DNA of 10,059 nucleotides from an uncultured Mucispirillum sp. Its GTDB lineage: Bacteria; Chrysiogenota; Deferribacteres; Deferribacterales; Mucispirillaceae. A program made the translations under genes and the position numbers. Below the pieces are notes generated by a model. That model was not told the DNA's origin. It worked only from the letters and a program-made list of their open reading frames with translations, and made no database searches. The stretch is from the NCBI GenBank assembly GCA_945947845.1, contig CAMEZN010000034.1, positions 1-10,059 of the forward strand, read 5' to 3'. Below are positions 12-9,906 of the stretch, in pieces. Every line of letters starts with the position of its first letter. The stretch's first letter is position 1.

Positions 12-836
12 ATGTCCGTAGAAATTGCTATGCTGCATGATGTGGAGAAATGCTCTGCATGCAGAGGCTGCTCAGTAGCCTGCAAACAGTGGAAAAATCT
101 GCCGGCTGATAAAACCCCTTTTGATGGTGATTATCAGTCGCATAAGGATTTAAGCAGTAAAACATATACTCTTATCCGTATGAAAGAGACTATGGTAAAT
201 GACAAAGTAAGATGGGATTTTCTTAAATTTCAATGTATGCACTGTGGTATTGCAGGTTGTGTGCTTGGCTGCCCAACAAATGCACTTCAAAAAGAAGAAA
301 CAGGTATTGTTTCTTATGATATAGATAAATGTATTGGCTGCGGATATTGTGAGATTAACTGCACATTTGGTGTGCCACATGTAGATAAAGAAACTAAAAA
401 ATCTACTAAATGCAACTTATGTATAGATAGAGTTGAAAAATATATAGAAAGTGGCTACAACAGAAAATATATGCCATCTTGTGCAAAAACATGCACAGCA
501 GATGCTATACTTTTTGGCACTCGTGAAGAGATGGTAAAAATAGCTAATGAAAGGCTTGCAGTTTTAAAAGAAAAATATCCAGATGCCTGCACATATAATG
601 TAGAAACAAATAATTCTATTAAAGGGGGAGCTATGATGTATGTTCTTCCTTATAAACCATCTGTTTATGGTCTGCCTGATGAGCCACAGCTTGCTCCAAG
701 TTTAGATGTATGGAAAGAAAAAATTCAGCCTGCTGGTAAAGTTTTAATGGGTGCAGCTGTTGTTGCAGTGGCTGGTGCTGCTATTGTTAACACTGTAACA
801 GGCGGTTCAAAACATGGAGGTGATGACCATGAGTAA
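12..836 (+). CDS. fdhB: Formate dehydrogenase iron-sulfur (beta) subunit
   Basis: Electron-transfer subunit of a membrane-bound, periplasm-facing formate dehydrogenase (FdnH/FdhB family). It passes electrons from the catalytic molybdo/tungsto-subunit to the cytochrome b subunit. The 274 residues carry sixteen cysteines grouped for four [4Fe-4S] clusters: C14/C17/C20/C24, C75/C78/C83/C87, C107/C110/C113/C117 and C134/C137/C157/C161. The MYVLPY...YGLP segment (about 209-222) is typical of the family, and residues about 240-263 form a single C-terminal membrane anchor. There is no N-terminal signal, as expected for a subunit co-exported with its Tat-dependent partner. A perfect AGGAGG at 1-6 fixes the start and suggests a position inside an operon, with the catalytic gene just upstream and outside the window. 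The last 8 bases overlap the cytochrome b gene. Closely related four-cluster subunits of other molybdoenzymes are possible, but the gamma-subunit partner and the C-terminal anchor favour formate dehydrogenase. Confidence 0.92.
   Translation: MSVEIAMLHDVEKCSACRGCSVACKQWKNLPADKTPFDGDYQSHKDLSSKTYTLIRMKETMVNDKVRWDFLKFQCMHCGIAGCVLGCPTNALQKEETGIVSYDIDKCIGCGYCEINCTFGVPHVDKETKKSTKCNLCIDRVEKYIESGYNRKYMPSCAKTCTADAILFGTREEMVKIANERLAVLKEKYPDACTYNVETNNSIKGGAMMYVLPYKPSVYGLPDEPQLAPSLDVWKEKIQPAGKVLMGAAVVAVAGAAIVNTVTGGSKHGGDDHE
816..821 (+). promoter_or_regulatory. Ribosome binding site setting the fdhC start
   Basis: GGAGGT lies inside the 3' end of the upstream gene, 7 bases before the ATG at 829. It makes 829 the likely start rather than the in-frame ATGs at 814 (overlapping the site itself) or 823 (too close to it). 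Confidence 0.75.
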
Positions 837-1461
837 TGAAAAATATGTAAAACGATTTAGCAAATTTATAGTTATAGCTCACTGGACTAATGCAATCAGT
901 TTTATTATGCTTGTATTAACTGGGCTTCCATTATTTTTAGGCATAAAAGTTCCTGAATTTTTACAGATTGTTCACAGAGTATTTGCTGTAACTTTTTTAC
1001 TTCCAACTCCATTTATGATATTAATGGATAGAAAAGGATTTATGCAGTGGACTAAAAATATATTAAGCTGGAAAAGCTATGATTTTAAATTTTTAGCAGT
1101 TTTTCCACTGGAATTAATAGGCAAGGCAAAAAATGTTCCTAAACAGGACTTTTTTAATGGCGGTCAAAAATTAAATTCAGTTCTTACTATTTTAGGTGCA
1201 ATTACAATGGTTATCACTGGTTTTATCATGTGGTTTAAAGAGTTATTTCCAGTGGCAGTTGTAAGGTGGGCATATCCAGTTCATGATGCTGGTATGGCAA
1301 TAATGGTTGCTGTAATTATCGGCCATATTTATTTAAGTGTAGGCCACCCTGCAAGCCGTCCATCTTTTATGGGTATGACAAAAGGTGTCGTTCCAGAAAG
1401 CTATGCAAAAGCACACCATGGCAGATGGTATGATGAATTGAAAGAGAAAAACGAAATATAA
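829..1461 (+). CDS. fdhC: Formate dehydrogenase cytochrome b556 (gamma) subunit
   Basis: Integral-membrane dihaem cytochrome b of the FdnI family. It takes electrons from the iron-sulfur subunit and reduces quinone. The protein has 210 residues from the ATG at 829, close to the usual 210-220, with about four hydrophobic segments (roughly 15-38, 50-66, 117-137 and 150-171). Candidate haem ligands are H18 (AHWTNA), H49 (IVHRVF), H152 (PVHDAG) and H166 (IGHIYL), matching the spacing of the four ligands known in E. coli FdnI. The NGGQKLN segment near 110-116 and the HHGRWYDE end are also family-like. The gene overlaps fdhB by 8 bases (ATGAGTAA), implying translational coupling. It is the last gene of the operon, followed directly by a strong hairpin terminator. 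Confidence 0.92.
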   Translation: MSNEKYVKRFSKFIVIAHWTNAISFIMLVLTGLPLFLGIKVPEFLQIVHRVFAVTFLLPTPFMILMDRKGFMQWTKNILSWKSYDFKFLAVFPLELIGKAKNVPKQDFFNGGQKLNSVLTILGAITMVITGFIMWFKELFPVAVVRWAYPVHDAGMAIMVAVIIGHIYLSVGHPASRPSFMGMTKGVVPESYAKAHHGRWYDELKEKNEI

Positions 1462-2164: not shown

Positions 2165-3172
2165 ATGTATAGATATTTATTATGTTGCATTATCAGTATA
2201 TTTTTCATTTTCATTTTTTCTGCAAATGTGAAAGCATCTGAAATTGTTCCTTATAAAAAACATACTGTATATGGAATATGGGAAAATGATAAAATCAGCT
2301 TTATTCATACAGACAGGAACTATACAAATGGTGTCCGTTATGGATATACTTCAAAAGAGTATGATTATTTTTCAGAAGACAATAAAATGAGCTGGGCAAA
2401 AAATGTTTCAATTATTAATTATAATAAGCCCCATTTAACCAGATTCCATTTAAGTATAAATCAAGAAATGTATACTCCTGATTATACTGGAGATTATGTG
2501 CCGTTAAATGAACATTCATATGGTGGTTTTCTCTATTTTAATGCAGGCATATATAACAGAACCGCAAATACTCTGGAACATATAGGATTAAAGATTGGTA
2601 TAACTGGACCTTATGCACTAGGCAAGGAAGCTCAGTCATTTATACATACAATATTTGATAAAGGTCTATTTTACGGCTGGGATAATCAGATAGGAACAGA
2701 ATTTATTTTCAACCCTTATTATCAGTGGACTGGTAGAGCTTATATATTTAAAACAAATGTAATTTCTATGGATATTCTTGGCACATTTGATGTTGCAGCA
2801 GGTAATGCAGATACTCATTTTGGAGCTTACGGCACTTTGCGGATAGGTTATAATTTAGATAATGATTTTGGAGTTCAAAAGATAAATACATTAACTGATG
2901 CAGCTCCAGTTCACAGTGATAAATTGTCAGTATACCTTTTTGCAGGCGGTGGCCCGCGGGTAGTGCTTTATAATCTTTTTGTATCAGGCAATAACAGCAC
3001 AAGTGATTATGGATATAATACAAATCTGTTAAAATATGATGCTTTTTGTGGTATTGTTATATCATATTATGGTGTAAGGGCTGGCTATACATGGACACTT
3101 TACACAAAAGAATATACCACTCAGCCATATGGACATACATTCGGACAGTTATTTATTGAAATAGCTTTTTAA
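2165..3172 (+). CDS. lpxR: Lipid A 3'-O-deacylase, LpxR family (DUF2219)
   Basis: Outer-membrane enzyme predicted to remove the 3'-acyloxyacyl chain from lipid A, changing surface charge and TLR4 recognition in organisms where it has been studied. The 335 residues start with a signal peptide (hydrophobic 4-20, likely cut after VKA at 24). The mature chain is a beta-barrel ending in phenylalanine, as outer-membrane proteins usually do. Family signatures are visible in order: WENDK (39-43, with the N-D pair found in the active site), TDRNYTNG (49-56), INQEMYTP (98-105), the GGFLY region (120-124), then GPYALG (148-153) followed by Q157 and H161. H161 lines up with the catalytic histidine (His122) of the Salmonella enzyme as I recall it. 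The gene stands alone between long AT-rich spacers and has no evident Shine-Dalgarno. Nothing nearby belongs to lipid A synthesis. Family confidence is high; activity is inferred. Confidence 0.87.
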   Translation: MYRYLLCCIISIFFIFIFSANVKASEIVPYKKHTVYGIWENDKISFIHTDRNYTNGVRYGYTSKEYDYFSEDNKMSWAKNVSIINYNKPHLTRFHLSINQEMYTPDYTGDYVPLNEHSYGGFLYFNAGIYNRTANTLEHIGLKIGITGPYALGKEAQSFIHTIFDKGLFYGWDNQIGTEFIFNPYYQWTGRAYIFKTNVISMDILGTFDVAAGNADTHFGAYGTLRIGYNLDNDFGVQKINTLTDAAPVHSDKLSVYLFAGGGPRVVLYNLFVSGNNSTSDYGYNTNLLKYDAFCGIVISYYGVRAGYTWTLYTKEYTTQPYGHTFGQLFIEIAF

Positions 3173-3651: not shown

Positions 3652-5181
3652 ATGAAAAAATTCATATCTAAACCTGCGGCATTAATTAAAATTATGCTGC
3701 TGGCAGTGCTTGCTGTTTCATTTGCTGCTGCATGCGGTTATGACGATGTAAATGAAGAAAAAGCACAAGCAATTGCTGCATATTATGCTGGTGATGCAGA
3801 ACCGCGTTCAGCATTAATAGATGCAGAAACATTAAAAAGTTATATTGATGCTGGTTATGTAACACCAGACGGAAAAAAAGTTTTAATACTGCATATTGCA
3901 GCTCAAAATGGAACACTTCCAGCTACAACTATTAAAGGTGCTTATGGTGTTGCATCAGATAGTTATGTAATGGAAGCAAGAAGTGATGGTCCTATAACTG
4001 ATAGTGCCATGGTTGCAAGTGGTGCTAAAATGGATTCTTTTTTAAGAGCATACGGCATAGATATGAACACATTAGTTGTTCTAACTGCTAAATCTCTTAA
4101 AAATACTGTAAACACCGAATCTCATTCACAAATGCTTGCAAGAGCTTTCTGGACATTTAAATACTGGGGTTTTTCTAACAATAATGTAAAAATATTAGAT
4201 GGTGCAGACAGCTATTTTGCTACACTTTATCCTACAATGATGGAATCATTCAGATATGGTATGCCACAGCCATCAACATTTTCTGTAAAAGACTTACCTG
4301 GTCAGCAGATGGATAAATATCGTGCTCCAATAGGCGAAGTATTAGGCTATGCTGCAACTGGTGCATTAAAAGCAGACGGCACTGGAAGTGCTATTATGGT
4401 ATCTACTATGAATGCAAAAACAAAACTTCAAGTTAATGGAGTTACTGAAACATTTGTAATTGGTAATACAAGATTTATTGAAGGCAGAATTAATGGTGAA
4501 ACTCAGCTTGCATTATCTGGTAATGAAACTGACGGATACGATAATTCTTGGAACCTGTATGTTGATGATGTAACTGGTAAATTTAAAACAAATGAAGAGT
4601 TAACAGCACTTATAAAAGGTCTTACTACTGATGGAACAGCTGCTGCATCATTTTTACCAGCAGATAAAAATAAAAGAATTATGTTCCACTGTATAACAGG
4701 TAGAACAACTGCTCCACACTGGTTTGTATTTAAAGAGCTTTTAGGTTATACTAATGCTGCTATTTATGATGGTTCTTGGCAGGAATGGACAAATTTATCA
4801 GCTTATGTTCCTGCAAATACACAAGATACATTTGTTAACCAGCTTTATGATAACGGAACATTAATCAGTGGCAAAGCAGCAACAGATTATCTTTCTTATA
4901 ATGGCACTGGCTTTGTAAAAAAATCTACTAATGAAAATGCTAATATAGATTACAGCCCTGTTATGAGAAATCTTAACTGGGATACAGCAAGATATACAAA
5001 ATTCTTAACTATGGGTGCTCCTAAAAATAATACAAATACTTATGATAACGAATATGCTGGTGATGGAAGAGAAATCAACACAGCAGATAAAAATTATCAA
5101 GCAGGTAAAGGCGATGCTTCTTCTGGCGGTAACGGCGGCGGTGCATCAACTGGCGGCGGTTCAGCTCCAGCAGGCTGCTAA
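3652..5181 (+). CDS. Tandem-rhodanese lipoprotein with a C-terminal cysteine tail
   Basis: Predicted secreted, lipid-anchored sulfurtransferase of 509 residues. A signal peptide (1-27) ends in FAAAC, a slightly atypical lipobox with C28 as lipidation site. Rhodanese-like domain 1 (about 53-200) has the DAETLKSYID start and a KILDGA segment (180-185), but its active-site loop reads AKSLKNT without cysteine, so it is probably non-catalytic. Domain 2 (about 228-385) contains FIEGRING (275-282) and the loop HCITGRTT with C347 as the likely persulfide-carrying cysteine, followed by YDGSWQEW. An extension of about 100 residues leads to a Gly/Ser tail (about 489-505) ending PAGC. The only three cysteines are C28, C347 and C509. 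The porin gene follows 26 bases later and a small secreted protein completes the unit. The substrate is unknown: thiosulfate, polysulfide or a selenium compound are possible. From memory, a rhodanese-like lipoprotein also sits beside a porin in the Geobacter ext cluster. Confidence 0.85.
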   Translation: MKKFISKPAALIKIMLLAVLAVSFAAACGYDDVNEEKAQAIAAYYAGDAEPRSALIDAETLKSYIDAGYVTPDGKKVLILHIAAQNGTLPATTIKGAYGVASDSYVMEARSDGPITDSAMVASGAKMDSFLRAYGIDMNTLVVLTAKSLKNTVNTESHSQMLARAFWTFKYWGFSNNNVKILDGADSYFATLYPTMMESFRYGMPQPSTFSVKDLPGQQMDKYRAPIGEVLGYAATGALKADGTGSAIMVSTMNAKTKLQVNGVTETFVIGNTRFIEGRINGETQLALSGNETDGYDNSWNLYVDDVTGKFKTNEELTALIKGLTTDGTAAASFLPADKNKRIMFHCITGRTTAPHWFVFKELLGYTNAAIYDGSWQEWTNLSAYVPANTQDTFVNQLYDNGTLISGKAATDYLSYNGTGFVKKSTNENANIDYSPVMRNLNWDTARYTKFLTMGAPKNNTNTYDNEYAGDGREINTADKNYQAGKGDASSGGNGGGASTGGGSAPAGC

Positions 5182-5207
5182 TTAAAGTATAGACAAGGAG
5201 AATAGTT

Positions 5208-6404
5208 ATGAAAAAATTACTGTTAATTATATCTATGGTTAGTATTTTTGCATCTTCTGTTTATGCTTTTGAGCCTATTCAGCTTGGTGAAAATGCTTAT
5301 TTAAGAATATTTTATGATACTCAGTTTGGTTTAACTTACCGTGATACTGGCACTGGTGTAATGAACAATGAAGCTGCCTTAAACTTAAATTTTAGAAGAA
5401 ACAGACTTGGGTTTGTTGGAACATATAACGATGTATTAAGCTTTTATTTCAATACAGAATATATTGAAAATAAAATCATTAACCCATTAAGTATATCTGA
5501 CCAGCCAAACCAAAACTTCTATGTTTTAGATGCACAAATCAGATATGACCCATTTGACTTTTTAAGATTTCAATTAGGTAAATTTAAACACAACCTTACT
5601 CGTGAAAACTTAGAGTCATGCTTTGAGCCATTAAACTTAGACCGTTCATTATTCATAAGCACAACATTCAAAACAAGTCGTGATATGGGTATTGCTGTCT
5701 GGGGTAATATTTTAGATGGCTGGATACAATATCGTTTAGATGTTATGGAAGGTAAAACAGGCAGAAGCGGCGACCTTTTTGCAACAGATATGAGCCAGTT
5801 CCGCTATACAGGTCGTTTACAATTTTCTTTACTTGAAGATAAAGAAACAGATTATGGTGTAAAAGGCACATACAGAGGTAATAAACAAGTATTAACTATC
5901 GGTGGTGCTGTTCAATATGAACCAAATGTTGTTTACACTGATGCTGTAAACTTAACTGGGGTAAAAGATTACCTTGCTTATTCTGTTGATATTTTCTATG
6001 AACAAGGCTTTGAAAATGTTGGTGTGTTCACAGCTTCTGCTGCATATGTAGATATCAATATGGGAGATGCATATAAAGGCGAATTTGCATCAGCTGAATC
6101 TTATGGCTTAAATGGTCAAAAAAGAGGATTTTATGTAAAAGTTGGCTATATGCTTCCAAATATTCCTTTACAATTTTTTGTTCGCTATGATAATTATTAC
6201 TTTGCAAGACTTGACAGCAAAAACCAAGCATTCTATAATCAAAACATAAACTGGATTGGTGCAGGTCTTAACTACTACATAGATGGACAAAACATAAAAA
6301 TTACAGCACAGTATTCTAGAACAATGTTCTCACAAGAAGACCCTAACGACCCAAATTACAGGGACTTCCCTCCTGTTGAATTATATCCCCCGTTTAGATT
6401 TTAG
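5208..6404 (+). CDS. Outer-membrane porin, OprO/OprP-like beta-barrel
   Basis: Predicted 398-residue outer-membrane channel. A signal peptide (1-20) is cut after SVYA. The mature chain alternates short amphipathic strands with loops throughout, including LNFRRNRLGFVGTYND (84 onward in the precursor region), an RFQLGKFKHNLT segment and repeated aromatic girdle residues, and ends FRF. The R/G-rich early strands followed by the LGKFK...L..E motif resemble the phosphate-selective porin O/P superfamily. That name should not be taken as evidence for phosphate, as the superfamily also carries other anions. A strong AAGGAG (5195-5200) lies 7 bases before the ATG. The gene sits between the rhodanese lipoprotein and the small secreted protein with short spacers, so it probably admits or exports a substrate handled by the rhodanese. 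Frequent C-ending codons (AAC, GAC) suggest high expression. Confidence 0.85.
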   Translation: MKKLLLIISMVSIFASSVYAFEPIQLGENAYLRIFYDTQFGLTYRDTGTGVMNNEAALNLNFRRNRLGFVGTYNDVLSFYFNTEYIENKIINPLSISDQPNQNFYVLDAQIRYDPFDFLRFQLGKFKHNLTRENLESCFEPLNLDRSLFISTTFKTSRDMGIAVWGNILDGWIQYRLDVMEGKTGRSGDLFATDMSQFRYTGRLQFSLLEDKETDYGVKGTYRGNKQVLTIGGAVQYEPNVVYTDAVNLTGVKDYLAYSVDIFYEQGFENVGVFTASAAYVDINMGDAYKGEFASAESYGLNGQKRGFYVKVGYMLPNIPLQFFVRYDNYYFARLDSKNQAFYNQNINWIGAGLNYYIDGQNIKITAQYSRTMFSQEDPNDPNYRDFPPVELYPPFRF

Positions 6405-6455
6405 TAAGGTGTAAATAATGGGGTATATTAGCTCCATAATATAAGAGGTGAAAAT

Positions 6456-6662
6456 ATGAAAAAAATCGCACTTGTAGTATTAGCAACTTTCGTTGCAGCT
6501 AGCTTTGCTTTCGCTGCTCCACAATCAGGAAAAGTAGTTTCTGTTGATGGCGACAAAGTAACTATTGAAGTTAAAGGCAACAAATTTAAAGCTGGTGATG
6601 CAGTTTCTGTTGATGCAGAAAAAGCTAAAAAAGCTAAAAAACCTAGAATGTCTGGCTGCTAG
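6456..6662 (+). CDS. Small secreted protein with a single, C-terminal cysteine
   Basis: No named family is recognised. The 68-residue precursor has a clear signal peptide (1-20, AFA before the cut), leaving a mature protein of about 48 residues. Residues 25-54 read as a compact set of beta strands (GKVVSVDGDKVTIEVKG, then KFKAGDAVSVD), resembling a small SH3/OB-like barrel of the kind found in short periplasmic proteins. A lysine/alanine-rich stretch (56-62) leads to the end, PRMSGC. The last residue is its only cysteine, which recalls the PAGC end of the rhodanese two genes upstream. It has a good ribosome binding site (AGAGGTG, 6444-6450), lies 51 bases after the porin and is followed by a strong terminator. 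Being last in a unit with a rhodanese, it could be a carrier of sulfur or another chalcogen on the terminal cysteine; that is inference. A metal-binding or structural role is equally open. Confidence 0.8.
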   Translation: MKKIALVVLATFVAASFAFAAPQSGKVVSVDGDKVTIEVKGNKFKAGDAVSVDAEKAKKAKKPRMSGC

Positions 6663-6690: not shown

Positions 6691-6717
6691 AAGGGGAAGC
6701 AATGCTTCCCCTTTTTT
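6691..6717 (+). terminator. Rho-independent terminator of the rhodanese-porin operon
   Basis: The perfect 10-bp stem AAGGGGAAGC/GCTTCCCCTT (6691-6700 with 6704-6713) has a 3-base loop and runs into six T residues. It lies 28 bases after the small-protein stop and ends the three-gene unit, separating it from the cytochrome pair. Confidence 0.93.
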
Positions 6718-6944: not shown

Positions 6945-8801
6945 ATGAAAAAAATATTGTTTTTAACTTTAATATTATTATTTATTACTTTATGTTTGCT
7001 TTATTATTTTTCTAATAAAGATAAAGAAATATCTTCATGTATATCATGCCATGAAGGTATAGAAACAGTTTCTCATACTCATAATGATTTATCATGCACA
7101 GATTGCCATGGTGGAAATTCGTTAACAATGGATAAAGAATTGGCACATGCAAATATGTTTGGTAAAAATAACCCGTCAGACCCATCTGTATGGAATTATA
7201 CTTGTGGAAAATGCCATGAATATGAAGTGAAAAGAGTGTCATCATCTATTATGCACACCAATACAGGCATTATAAAAAATACTCTTGCTGCATGGGGAGA
7301 AGAAAACGGCAGGCTTTATTCTCAGAATAATAACGAAAAAATATACGGTAAAGACGGCAGTCTTATCACAATAGATAATATTTCAAACTATGATACTATT
7401 TCTGCTGATATGTATAGGAAATTCTGCTCTGCCTGCCATGTAGGTCAGGCAGCAGATATGGGGTATCAGGGAGTTCACTCATCAGGCTGTGCTACCTGCC
7501 ATTTTCCTTATGGAGATTTTGGCGAATATAATGGTGGCGATAAATCTATGAAAGGCAGAAGTATGCACTCTGTTACCCATGAAATGCAGGCTCTGCCAGA
7601 TGATAATGTATGCCTTGCCTGCCATAACAGAAGCGGTCGTATTGCATTATCATATAAAGGGGAATATGACGGCAATAATGCACTTGTGCCATTAAAAGAA
7701 GGTATCCCCGGGCCTAAACTTACAAGCGGTTTAAGAAACACCCGCCATTTTCAAGATGATATACACCATGCTCGTGGTATGGAATGTATTGACTGCCATA
7801 CATCTATGGAAATCATGGGTGATGGTTATTATTATGAAAATATGTATGAACAGGTGGAAATAAGCTGTGAAAGCTGCCATGGCTCATATACTGAAAGGCC
7901 AAAAACAGTACCTGCTGTTAAAGAAAATATGGTGCCTTATTTAAAAGGTTCTTCATACAGCGATAAAATAGCTTATGGAAGTAAAATGGTGCTTACAGAT
8001 AAGGGCAGACCTTATTCTAATGTATATGAAAAAGACAATAAAATAATATTAATGAGTAAAAGAACAGGCAAGGAAAGGGAAGTAAAGGTAATTACAGGCA
8101 CAAATGAGCATAATATAGCAGGTCATAATAAAATGGAGTGTTATACATGCCATTCTGCAAATGTTATACAGTGTTACGGCTGCCATGTGGAATATGATGA
8201 AACAAAAACTATGTATGATTTTGTTAAGCATGAAGAAACACCGGGGCTTTTTGTGGAAACAGAAGATGTGAGAACATTTTATCCATTTCCGCTTGCATTT
8301 AATCAGAAAGGAAAGATTGCACCTGTTACACCGGGCTGCCAGACATTTTTAACCCATATTGATAAAAATGGTAAAGTGGTATCAGATGATAAAATGGTAG
8401 ATTTTAGGGGAAAACCGCAGATGAAGTTTGCTCCATTTTATGGTCATAATACAGGTAAAAAAGCAGTCAGCTGTGAAAGCTGTCATTCTACCTTATTTTT
8501 CTATGGCTTTGGGGACGGGCTTTTTTCATCAGATAATAAAACATTAACTTCTGCAATACGATGTGATAACTGCCCAGTTCCATTAACTTCTATTTTTGCT
8601 GTGGAAAACGGAGAGTTTAAATCAAAGTCAGATATTGTCCGCGAAGGTTCCAGCCCTTTAAGTAGAGATGAAATAGTAAATGCAATAGATGTAATGAAGT
8701 GCATTGTTTGCCACAGTGAAAAAGACAGTAAATATTACCAGCAGGATATAGATTATGAAAAAATACTTAATGATGATATTCATAAGCCTCTTATTCGTTA
8801 G
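6945..8801 (+). CDS. Dodecahaem c-type cytochrome, membrane-anchored
   Basis: Predicted periplasmic electron carrier or reductase subunit of 618 residues. One hydrophobic segment (4-22) has no signal-peptidase site and no proper lipobox, so it probably stays as a membrane anchor. Twelve CxxCH haem motifs start at C32, C51, C87, C161, C182, C223, C281, C308, C399, C410, C510 and C586. A thirteenth, CDNCP (540-544), has proline in place of the haem-ligating histidine, and C465 is unpaired. CLACHNRSGRIALSY (223-237), the CQTFLTHIDKNGKVV region (465-479) and PLSRDEI...CIVCH near the end resemble large multihaem cytochromes of Geobacter-type bacteria, but I cannot assign a named enzyme. The physiological acceptor is unknown. 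No Shine-Dalgarno precedes the ATG. Its end overlaps the next cytochrome gene by 47 bases. Confidence 0.88.
   Translation: MKKILFLTLILLFITLCLLYYFSNKDKEISSCISCHEGIETVSHTHNDLSCTDCHGGNSLTMDKELAHANMFGKNNPSDPSVWNYTCGKCHEYEVKRVSSSIMHTNTGIIKNTLAAWGEENGRLYSQNNNEKIYGKDGSLITIDNISNYDTISADMYRKFCSACHVGQAADMGYQGVHSSGCATCHFPYGDFGEYNGGDKSMKGRSMHSVTHEMQALPDDNVCLACHNRSGRIALSYKGEYDGNNALVPLKEGIPGPKLTSGLRNTRHFQDDIHHARGMECIDCHTSMEIMGDGYYYENMYEQVEISCESCHGSYTERPKTVPAVKENMVPYLKGSSYSDKIAYGSKMVLTDKGRPYSNVYEKDNKIILMSKRTGKEREVKVITGTNEHNIAGHNKMECYTCHSANVIQCYGCHVEYDETKTMYDFVKHEETPGLFVETEDVRTFYPFPLAFNQKGKIAPVTPGCQTFLTHIDKNGKVVSDDKMVDFRGKPQMKFAPFYGHNTGKKAVSCESCHSTLFFYGFGDGLFSSDNKTLTSAIRCDNCPVPLTSIFAVENGEFKSKSDIVREGSSPLSRDEIVNAIDVMKCIVCHSEKDSKYYQQDIDYEKILNDDIHKPLIR
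8562..8576 (+). other. Degenerate haem motif CDNCP
   Basis: TGT GAT AAC TGC CCA encodes C-D-N-C-P at the place of a further haem-binding motif in the dodecahaem cytochrome. Both thioether cysteines are kept but the axial histidine is proline. Changing the proline codon CCA to a histidine codon needs two base changes. Confidence 0.8.
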
Positions 8802-9906
8802 TGCAGTTTATGCAGCCCACCCAGAATATAACGAAAAACAGGTATGTGCAGACTGCCATAAAGATTGCAGTATAGATAAGTTAGTAATGACAAATAAAAC
8901 AAAAGAAAAAAAGTTTGTAGATGATGCTTTCCGCCAGTTTGATGGTGAGTTTGGGCAAAAGCATTGCTATAACTCCTGCCATATATCTAAATGTGAAGAC
9001 TGCCATAAAGGAAAAGGAAAAAATATTTCAAAGCCAAAAAATGATGACTGCTTTGTATGTCATAAAGATACATATACTGGTATAGAATATGCAGGGCTTG
9101 GAATAAGGGAAGACCATGAAAGATATAAAAGGGGTATAGAAAAAGACGGCGAATATTACTTGAAAATGCTGAGTGATGTTCACTATGAACATGGTATGCA
9201 GTGCACAGACTGCCATACAAAAAATAATATACAGGGTAAAGAAAAAGCAAAAGACTGCCTTTCCTGCCATACTTATGATACAAATATTATAGACCACAGC
9301 ATAAAAGGGCATGATAAGGTGGCATGTATTTCCTGCCATGCAGCTTATGCACCTATGGAGCTTGGCACATTTTATCTACGGTTTAGAGAAAGTTCTTATG
9401 CAGAGTTTGTTAAAGAGCTGCCCCAGATTAGTGAAGAATACTTTAAAAGCAGTTTTATGCGGGTAAATGAAAGACCGCCCCTTGTTATAGATAATGAAAC
9501 AGGAAAATATGTGCCTGCAAAGCCATCTAAAATTATATTTACTACAAATACATATAAAGATTTAGTTGTGGGGCAGGAAAATAAAATGATTGCAAACAGA
9601 TGGAAAGTAACTTATCCCCATACGGTCAGGCGGGAAACAGTATTATGCTCTTCATGCCATGATAATGAGAGAGCATTTTTGCTAGAAAGCGATGAAAATA
9701 GAATATTATACCCAGATAAAGACGGGCTTGCTGTAAAGTCATTTTATAATAGTGAAGGGTTTTCCATAGAAAATGCCCGCTTTGTAACAAGAAAGGAATA
9801 TGATGAAAAAATAAATATAAAATCAAAAGAATATCTGCAAAAATATTTTGAAAAATTAGACCAGTTAAAAAAACTTATTAATGCAACAGTGCCTGAAAAG
9901 AAATAA
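8755..9906 (+). CDS. Seven- or eight-haem periplasmic cytochrome c
   Basis: Predicted soluble periplasmic multihaem cytochrome of 383 residues. A signal peptide (1-20) is likely cut after AVYA. Seven CxxCH motifs start at C31, C80, C99, C150, C168, C191 and C298. An eighth candidate, CYNSCH (71-76), has three residues between the cysteines, and C38 is an extra unpaired cysteine. The haems are mostly in the first 200 residues; a haem-free segment of about 100 residues, including RFRESSYAEF and NERPPLVI, precedes the last haem, and the C-terminus is a charged, probably helical tail. I recognise no named family. The start is supported by AGGA at 8743-8746, 8 bases upstream, and by the signal peptide beginning exactly there. 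The first 47 bases lie inside the preceding cytochrome gene, so the two are surely co-transcribed and probably translationally coupled; they likely exchange electrons. Confidence 0.87.
   Translation: MKKYLMMIFISLLFVSAVYAAHPEYNEKQVCADCHKDCSIDKLVMTNKTKEKKFVDDAFRQFDGEFGQKHCYNSCHISKCEDCHKGKGKNISKPKNDDCFVCHKDTYTGIEYAGLGIREDHERYKRGIEKDGEYYLKMLSDVHYEHGMQCTDCHTKNNIQGKEKAKDCLSCHTYDTNIIDHSIKGHDKVACISCHAAYAPMELGTFYLRFRESSYAEFVKELPQISEEYFKSSFMRVNERPPLVIDNETGKYVPAKPSKIIFTTNTYKDLVVGQENKMIANRWKVTYPHTVRRETVLCSSCHDNERAFLLESDENRILYPDKDGLAVKSFYNSEGFSIENARFVTRKEYDEKINIKSKEYLQKYFEKLDQLKKLINATVPEKK
8965..8982 (+). other. Non-canonical haem-like motif CX3CH
   Basis: TGC TAT AAC TCC TGC CAT encodes C-Y-N-S-C-H (residues 71-76). 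It has the cysteines and histidine needed for a covalently bound haem but one extra residue in the loop. It is followed four residues later by a normal CEDCH. Confidence 0.75.

Follow-up and report, generated by a model that had tools for sequence, protein, structure and literature searches.

Three adjacent genes in a 10,059-nucleotide stretch of DNA from an uncultured Mucispirillum sp. (contig CAMEZN010000034.1; the whole stretch is referred to here as the window) raise the question of why a rhodanese and a small secreted protein, encoded on either side of a porin, both end in Gly-Cys. All three lie on the forward strand: the rhodanese (3652–5181, 509 amino acids, C-terminus PAGC, stop TAA), the porin (5208–6404, 398 amino acids) and the small secreted protein (6456–6662, 68 amino acids, C-terminus MSGC, stop TAG). 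A sequence-only reading of the window had given these positions and ends and had singled out the lone terminal cysteine of the small protein, all of which proved correct. It had also stated that no system of this composition was described, which is wrong because the genes match the ext operon (NCBIfam models; accessible text of PMC5877670 and PMC6148476). Judged by their family matches, the three genes (extH-like, extI and extJ) are the HIJ part of this known selenite- and tellurite-reduction operon, with extM and a gene of extN type coming next; the genome is that of a Mucispirillum-like member of the Deferribacterota. The operon was already known; the conserved terminal thiols and a cysteine in the porin, described below, are the added observation.

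ExtI scores 459 bits against its NCBIfam model (NF040900, cut-off 150) and 28.9 against Pfam Porin_O_P (cut-off 20.9), and ExtJ scores 63.2 bits against NF040942 (cut-off 52.5). The rhodanese is above the cut-off of Pfam Rhodanese (PF00581, 31.1 bits, cut-off 22.2) and under that of the ExtH model (NF040901, 152.1 bits, cut-off 200), which is passed in one of 50 Deferribacterota genomes. The accessible parts of the two reports describe the cluster of Geobacter sulfurreducens as extHIJKLMNOPQS and ExtJ as a small protein of unknown function (PMC5877670, PMC6148476). Selenite and tellurite reduction is tied experimentally to the ext genes for extI of G. sulfurreducens only, whose mutant forms Se0 at 30% and Te0 at 25% of wild type (PMC5877670), a phenotype that fits the chalcogen role suggested earlier from the sequence. 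In the ext-operon literature found, as far as its text is accessible, no mechanism is given for ExtH or ExtJ, and the literature searched (mostly open-access texts, without supplements) yielded no mention of their terminal cysteines.

ExtJ contains a single cysteine, its last residue (C68, codon 6657–6659), and begins with what was judged by eye to be a signal sequence. To avoid circularity, the profiles of ExtJ and ExtH were built without their tails, leaving out the last six and the last thirty residues, respectively. Scanning the window and 105 loci with the ExtJ profile gave 76 open reading frames (ORFs), from which four, in L024–L027, were dropped on inspection as other proteins. The 72 ORFs kept represent 62 distinct sequences, and 61 of these end in Gly-Cys; the one that does not is an additional ExtJ in L094 with an apparently frameshifted end. 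In a database search whose alignment stopped short of the last residues, 232 homologues were found, with Gly-Cys at the end of all 120 that were listed. In 107 of these 120 it is the only cysteine, which leaves it a role as carrier, as ligand or in reactions with another molecule. When 23 diverse ExtJ sequences are aligned, just two columns are invariant, the final Gly and Cys, and both residues are present in 23 of 23 ExtJ proteins from a second set of 30 loci, some of whose genomes are shared with the first. Across the sequences compared, the conserved terminal Gly-Cys of ExtJ is real and strong, and the cysteine to which the earlier proposal had attached its sulfur-carrier idea is kept by nearly all the homologues. 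A variant ending in selenocysteine was sought and rejected, none of the 72 ORFs kept with the tail-free profile stopping one residue short. Against solved structures, the ExtJ profile gave only weak matches, to riboflavin synthase and lumazine protein (best expectation value (E) 0.013), and a Pfam scan at E 0.01 returned KOW2_Spt5 alone, under its cut-off.

Terminal Gly-Cys is rare in the background. It ends 2 of 962 other gene calls in the same loci (any terminal cysteine, 13 of 962) and none of 375 ORFs in a 400-kilobase sample of a Mucispirillum genome (any terminal cysteine, 4 of 375), compared with 61 of 62 for ExtJ and 65 of 70 for ExtH, and chance was rejected as the source of these ends; Fisher values take no account of how closely the sequences are related.

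Three cysteines are found in window ExtH: one in the signal region, lipobox-like by eye; C347 (codon 4690–4692), the rhodanese catalytic residue, placed in the active-site loop by alignment to PDB 1uar; and the last residue, C509 (codon 5176–5178), at the end of a Gly-rich tail. Contrary to the sequence-only reading, which made it a periplasmic protein, ExtH is probably not free in the periplasm but a lipoprotein. Of 78 loci, 70 have an ExtH adjacent to ExtI, six have no adjacent ExtH that could be found, and two lack a complete ExtI. The ExtI-adjacent ExtH ends in cysteine in 69 of 70 ORFs, the exception being L037, and in Gly-Cys in 65; for the 29 ExtH proteins of the second set the counts are 29 and 28. 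Small or flexible residues make up most of the last 20 positions of the tail (a median of 0.8, counted over ExtH relatives). Mucispirillum genomes carry a second ExtH copy distant from ExtI, and all eight such paralogues that were read (L173–L178, L186, L187) have two cysteines, active-site and lipobox-like, and no tail. In these, EINKEDKxYxG and one more residue, K or M, form the C-terminus, immediately ahead of the point at which the Gly-rich tail of the ExtI-linked copy starts; the tail therefore goes with linkage to ExtI. A further tail-less relative lies upstream of a tailed ExtH in L031.

The porin also has a single cysteine, which was absent from the earlier account: C138 (codon 5619–5621), within RENLESCFEPL. 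The accessible text of PMC5877670 notes that ExtI has only one cysteine and assigns it no role. Among 120 listed ExtI homologues, 116 have the cysteine by pattern and two more have it in a varied motif; the remaining two are a 219-residue fragment and P0064, from the same sequence region as L037, with serine. C138 sits between two conserved stretches and aligns, in other family porins, with a segment of loop-like character, which we take to be the counterpart of the pore-narrowing loop 3 of OprP-type porins, so that C138 may lie in a loop narrowing the pore. Comparing ExtI with solved structures by profile yielded no useful match.

Partners of the porin cysteine were compared over 117 distinct ExtI-family porins, of which 107 have the cysteine and ten lack it. 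A tailed ExtH and a Gly-Cys ExtJ accompany 63 of the 107; 26 have a tailed ExtH and no ExtJ found at the locus; 11 have ExtJ and no ExtH found (L232–L241 and L040); and for seven the flank is cut or unreadable, two of these showing one tailed partner. Of the ten porins lacking the cysteine, nine being distant members of the wider family, seven have neither partner, two have no ExtH and an unreadable ExtJ flank, and L037 has a tail-less ExtH and no ExtJ. In the readable cases, the ExtI cysteine is never present without a Cys-tailed partner and never missing with one. Among the seven with a cut or unreadable flank, L033 (2053–5577) encodes a Cys-bearing ExtI without an adjacent ExtH, its upstream flank being readable, 3′ of genes that by eye resemble a class V aminotransferase and a YeeE/YedE-type transporter.

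In a census of 50 Deferribacterota genomes at thresholds of our own choice (ExtJ, E ≤ 1e-10; ExtH, E ≤ 1e-25), ExtH was present in all 23 genomes bearing ExtJ, and a single genome (G033, from which the L037-type locus comes) had ExtH without ExtJ. The proposed linkage of the small protein to a rhodanese thus holds at the genome level and is not required at the locus: ten divergent extI–extJ loci (L232–L241) combine the porin cysteine with a Gly-Cys ExtJ and show no adjacent ExtH in the flanks fetched, one of them (L234) containing a short tail-less rhodanese. Recurring between extI and extJ in L045, L097, L232–L236 and other loci of Desulfuromonadia type is a small secreted protein with the motif YRSGKTQT or YRSGxVQT; the one scanned (from L232) had no confident Pfam match.

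The likeliest reading, which we hold to be roughly an even call, is that ExtJ and the ExtH linked to ExtI each use the terminal Gly-Cys as the working thiol of a flexible, swinging arm that carries chalcogen. Each arm would be loaded with a reduced chalcogen (as in a persulfide or perselenide) or with an intermediate of thiol exchange and would pass this load among the rhodanese cysteine of ExtH, the lone cysteine of ExtI, serving as a docking or transfer station, and a periplasmic reductase side. The latter would be ExtM and ExtN in the window and, in relatives, also the selenocysteine cytochrome ExtKL or a molybdenum enzyme of Phs/Psr type. We infer that the load would be selenium, tellurium or sulfur, and infer likewise the partners met and the direction of transfer. 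Counted in favour are the conservation of the terminal cysteine in ExtJ and in ExtI-adjacent ExtH, the handling of chalcogens by the neighbours (ExtKL and the Phs/Psr-like enzymes), the extI mutant phenotype, the absence of the tail from ExtI-distant ExtH paralogues together with the co-occurrence of the ExtI cysteine and its partners, and the precedents of the DsrC and SoxY arms, whose cysteine is charged by a sulfurtransferase or serves several enzymes, in the text available of PMC3397948 and PMC5336275. If the thiols do carry chalcogen, selenium and tellurium would be handled in the periplasm by a carrier that matches neither the SoxY nor the DsrC family, and ExtI would be a porin with a working cysteine.

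The likeness to SoxY, in the SoxYZ complex, is that a cysteine on a flexible arm carries sulfur intermediates in the periplasm; we read the Thermus SoxY tail as Gly-Gly-Cys-Gly-stop from a printed mutagenesis primer (both from the accessible text of PMC5336275). The SoxY cysteine is, however, next to last, whereas that of ExtJ is last, and SoxYZ belongs to an oxidation pathway; ExtJ had no match to the SoxY family in the Pfam scan at E 0.01. In DsrC/TusE, the cysteine of a C-terminal arm is loaded by a sulfurtransferase (portions seen of PMC3397948), but the DsrC cysteine is penultimate and DsrC is cytoplasmic, unlike ExtJ with its last-residue cysteine and its apparent signal sequence, and ExtJ matches no DsrC family in Pfam or NCBIfam. 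YeeE/TsuA with TsuB (YeeD) offers a transport protein whose conserved cysteines contact a chalcogen oxyanion and which has a small thiol carrier as partner (as described in the available portion of PMC11582611); YeeE/TsuA is a helical protein of the cytoplasmic membrane, whereas ExtI matches a porin family.

Several observations weigh against the carrier-arm reading. Four Mucispirillum species (G040, G041, G043, G044) have extJ–extM–extN without adjoining extH or extI, their ExtJ still ending in Gly-Cys; a tail-less ExtH lies elsewhere in these genomes. As extJ thus occurs without linked extH and extI, and tailed ExtH without ExtJ, no single chain from ExtH through ExtI to ExtJ is obligatory, and direct transfer from ExtH to ExtJ, as the sequence-only reading had it, is not a requirement of the locus: these four species, the ten extI–extJ loci and the 26 extI loci with a tailed ExtH and no ExtJ all break the trio. 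On a tree of the 117 porins, ExtJ presence changes 11 times and the porin cysteine only twice, both times in step with its partners (sign test, p 0.5). With so few independent changes, the association between the ExtI cysteine and Cys-tailed partners is graded as suggestive only; the first porin set was, in addition, fetched with peptide patterns close to the cysteine, which favours Cys-bearing members. Among 13 matches found with window ExtJ as the query, P0008, on a 986-base contig, lacks the terminal cysteine and P0012 ends in Val-Cys. A cysteine of ExtM that tracks the presence of ExtJ was looked for and rejected: two non-haem cysteines, C465 and C540 in window numbering, are near-invariant (74 of 75 and 73 of 75 sequences) whether ExtJ is present or not.

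An extension of the carrier arms that we consider doubtful is a thiol conduit across the outer membrane. The ExtH tail would reach the ExtI cysteine and the ExtJ tail would meet it, with chalcogen or thiol redox equivalents crossing on cysteines, rather than on haems, to ExtM and ExtN, the selenocysteine cytochrome or a Phs/Psr-type enzyme.

A structural role without chalcogen, which we likewise regard as unlikely, would be that of a tether, in which stable disulfides between the ExtH tail and ExtI C138, and between ExtJ and either ExtI or a non-haem cysteine of ExtM, hold ExtH and the cytochromes at the porin. The single cysteines of ExtI and ExtJ and the single tail cysteine of ExtH would suit such bonds, as would the co-occurrence of the ExtI cysteine with tailed partners in all readable cases and the two near-invariant ExtM cysteines, and ExtI has been proposed as a possible cytochrome anchor (accessible text of PMC5877670). 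Against this, the four Mucispirillum species keep the ExtJ cysteine where ExtI is absent, and a tether alone does not explain why the cysteine has to be the very last residue.

Thiols react chemically with selenite, and the terminal cysteines could instead bind selenite or tellurite directly, as selenotrisulfide-like adducts, and present them to the cytochromes with no rhodanese as donor. Such a trap would accommodate ExtJ without linked ExtH and tailed ExtH without ExtJ, but leaves the presence of ExtH in every ExtJ-bearing Deferribacterota genome to be accounted for, and we consider it improbable. That Gly-Cys is a signal recognised by a modifying or anchoring enzyme is very improbable: the same end does appear on the unrelated ExtJ and ExtH and on a small protein beside ExtM in L180 and L182, but it is not general on secreted proteins: none of the 101 signal-like ORFs sampled from a Mucispirillum genome has it, and in the loci 2 of 451 do.

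The protein in question is encoded in G019 and G020 (L180, 7820–8185; L182, 10941–11330), has the look of a small secreted protein and carries the ending FEGC behind an acidic segment rich in Gly and Ser. Where ExtJ is present at the locus, relatives of this protein (identity to the L135 and L134 copies, 38% and 28%) have no terminal cysteine, Pfam gives the FEGC protein weak TPR matches only, under their cut-offs, and neither genome has a match to ExtH, ExtI or ExtJ. Since G019 and G020 belong to one genus, the FEGC end is probably a single event. Terminal Gly-Cys thus recurs on unrelated secreted proteins in ext-type clusters. In L080, a small secreted protein ending Ala-Gly-Cys (42–371) lies directly 5′ of a different rhodanese (400–1803) and a Phs/Psr-type cluster. 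No family could be assigned to this protein with confidence, and among the background it is the sole secreted-looking Gly-Cys protein that was judged real.

The gaps between extH and extI (26 bases) and between extI and extJ (51 bases), together with a terminator-like hairpin 3′ of extJ (6691–6713, forward strand; a 10-pair stem then a T run), bear out the tight spacing and closing terminator described from the sequence; terminator-like sites in the region number 5, against 1.6 expected from shuffles. The 3′ portion of extI contains, ahead of extJ, a perfect match to a sigma-70-like promoter (6211–6239; TTGACA, 17 bases, TATAAT, 12 of 12), which could drive extJ separately from extH and extI.

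Downstream on the same strand are two multihaem cytochrome genes. The first is extM (6945–8801, 618 amino acids), whose product scores 962 bits against NF040943 (cut-off 800) and for which 12 CxxCH motifs were counted in near relatives. The second (8755–9906, 383 amino acids) is of extN/extO type, above the cut-off of 200 for both NF040968 (366.3 bits) and NF040967 (363.8 bits). Gene families and order, H-I-J then M and N, are those of the Geobacter sulfurreducens operon; the window differs in the lack of ExtKL and in an ExtH under the model cut-off. No ExtKL lies between extJ and extM, and no match was found in the window's own genome, which is incomplete (75% complete) and whose nearest ExtI relatives are Mucispirillum records.

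ExtKL occurs in 30 of 78 loci, all 30 with ExtJ, and in the 28 copies with a readable motif the GHxxPDG-U-PTP position is an in-frame TGA in every case and cysteine in none. The other 48 of these loci, all with an ExtI relative and some truncated at a contig end, lack ExtKL, which was for this reason not treated as defining the operon. Of the 16 loci that have ExtJ and no ExtKL, 8 have a molybdenum enzyme whose start lies no more than 6 kilobases downstream of extI; the six scanned match best the model of the thiosulfate reductase PhsA, at 439.8–553.5 bits, under its cut-off of 694.

A further difference from Geobacter is that Mucispirillum relatives keep ExtP and ExtS at a second locus (L174, 7418–15495, in G040; L175–L178), the ExtP-like protein scoring under its cut-off and ExtS above; the ext system is therefore split over two loci in these relatives. 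Adjoining the pair are a tail-less ExtH paralogue and a molybdenum enzyme of the Phs/dimethyl sulfoxide (DMSO) family. Upstream of extH, the window (12–1461 and 2165–3172) encodes formate-dehydrogenase-type beta and gamma subunits and an LpxR-family outer membrane protein, a gene order also kept in L028 and L127.

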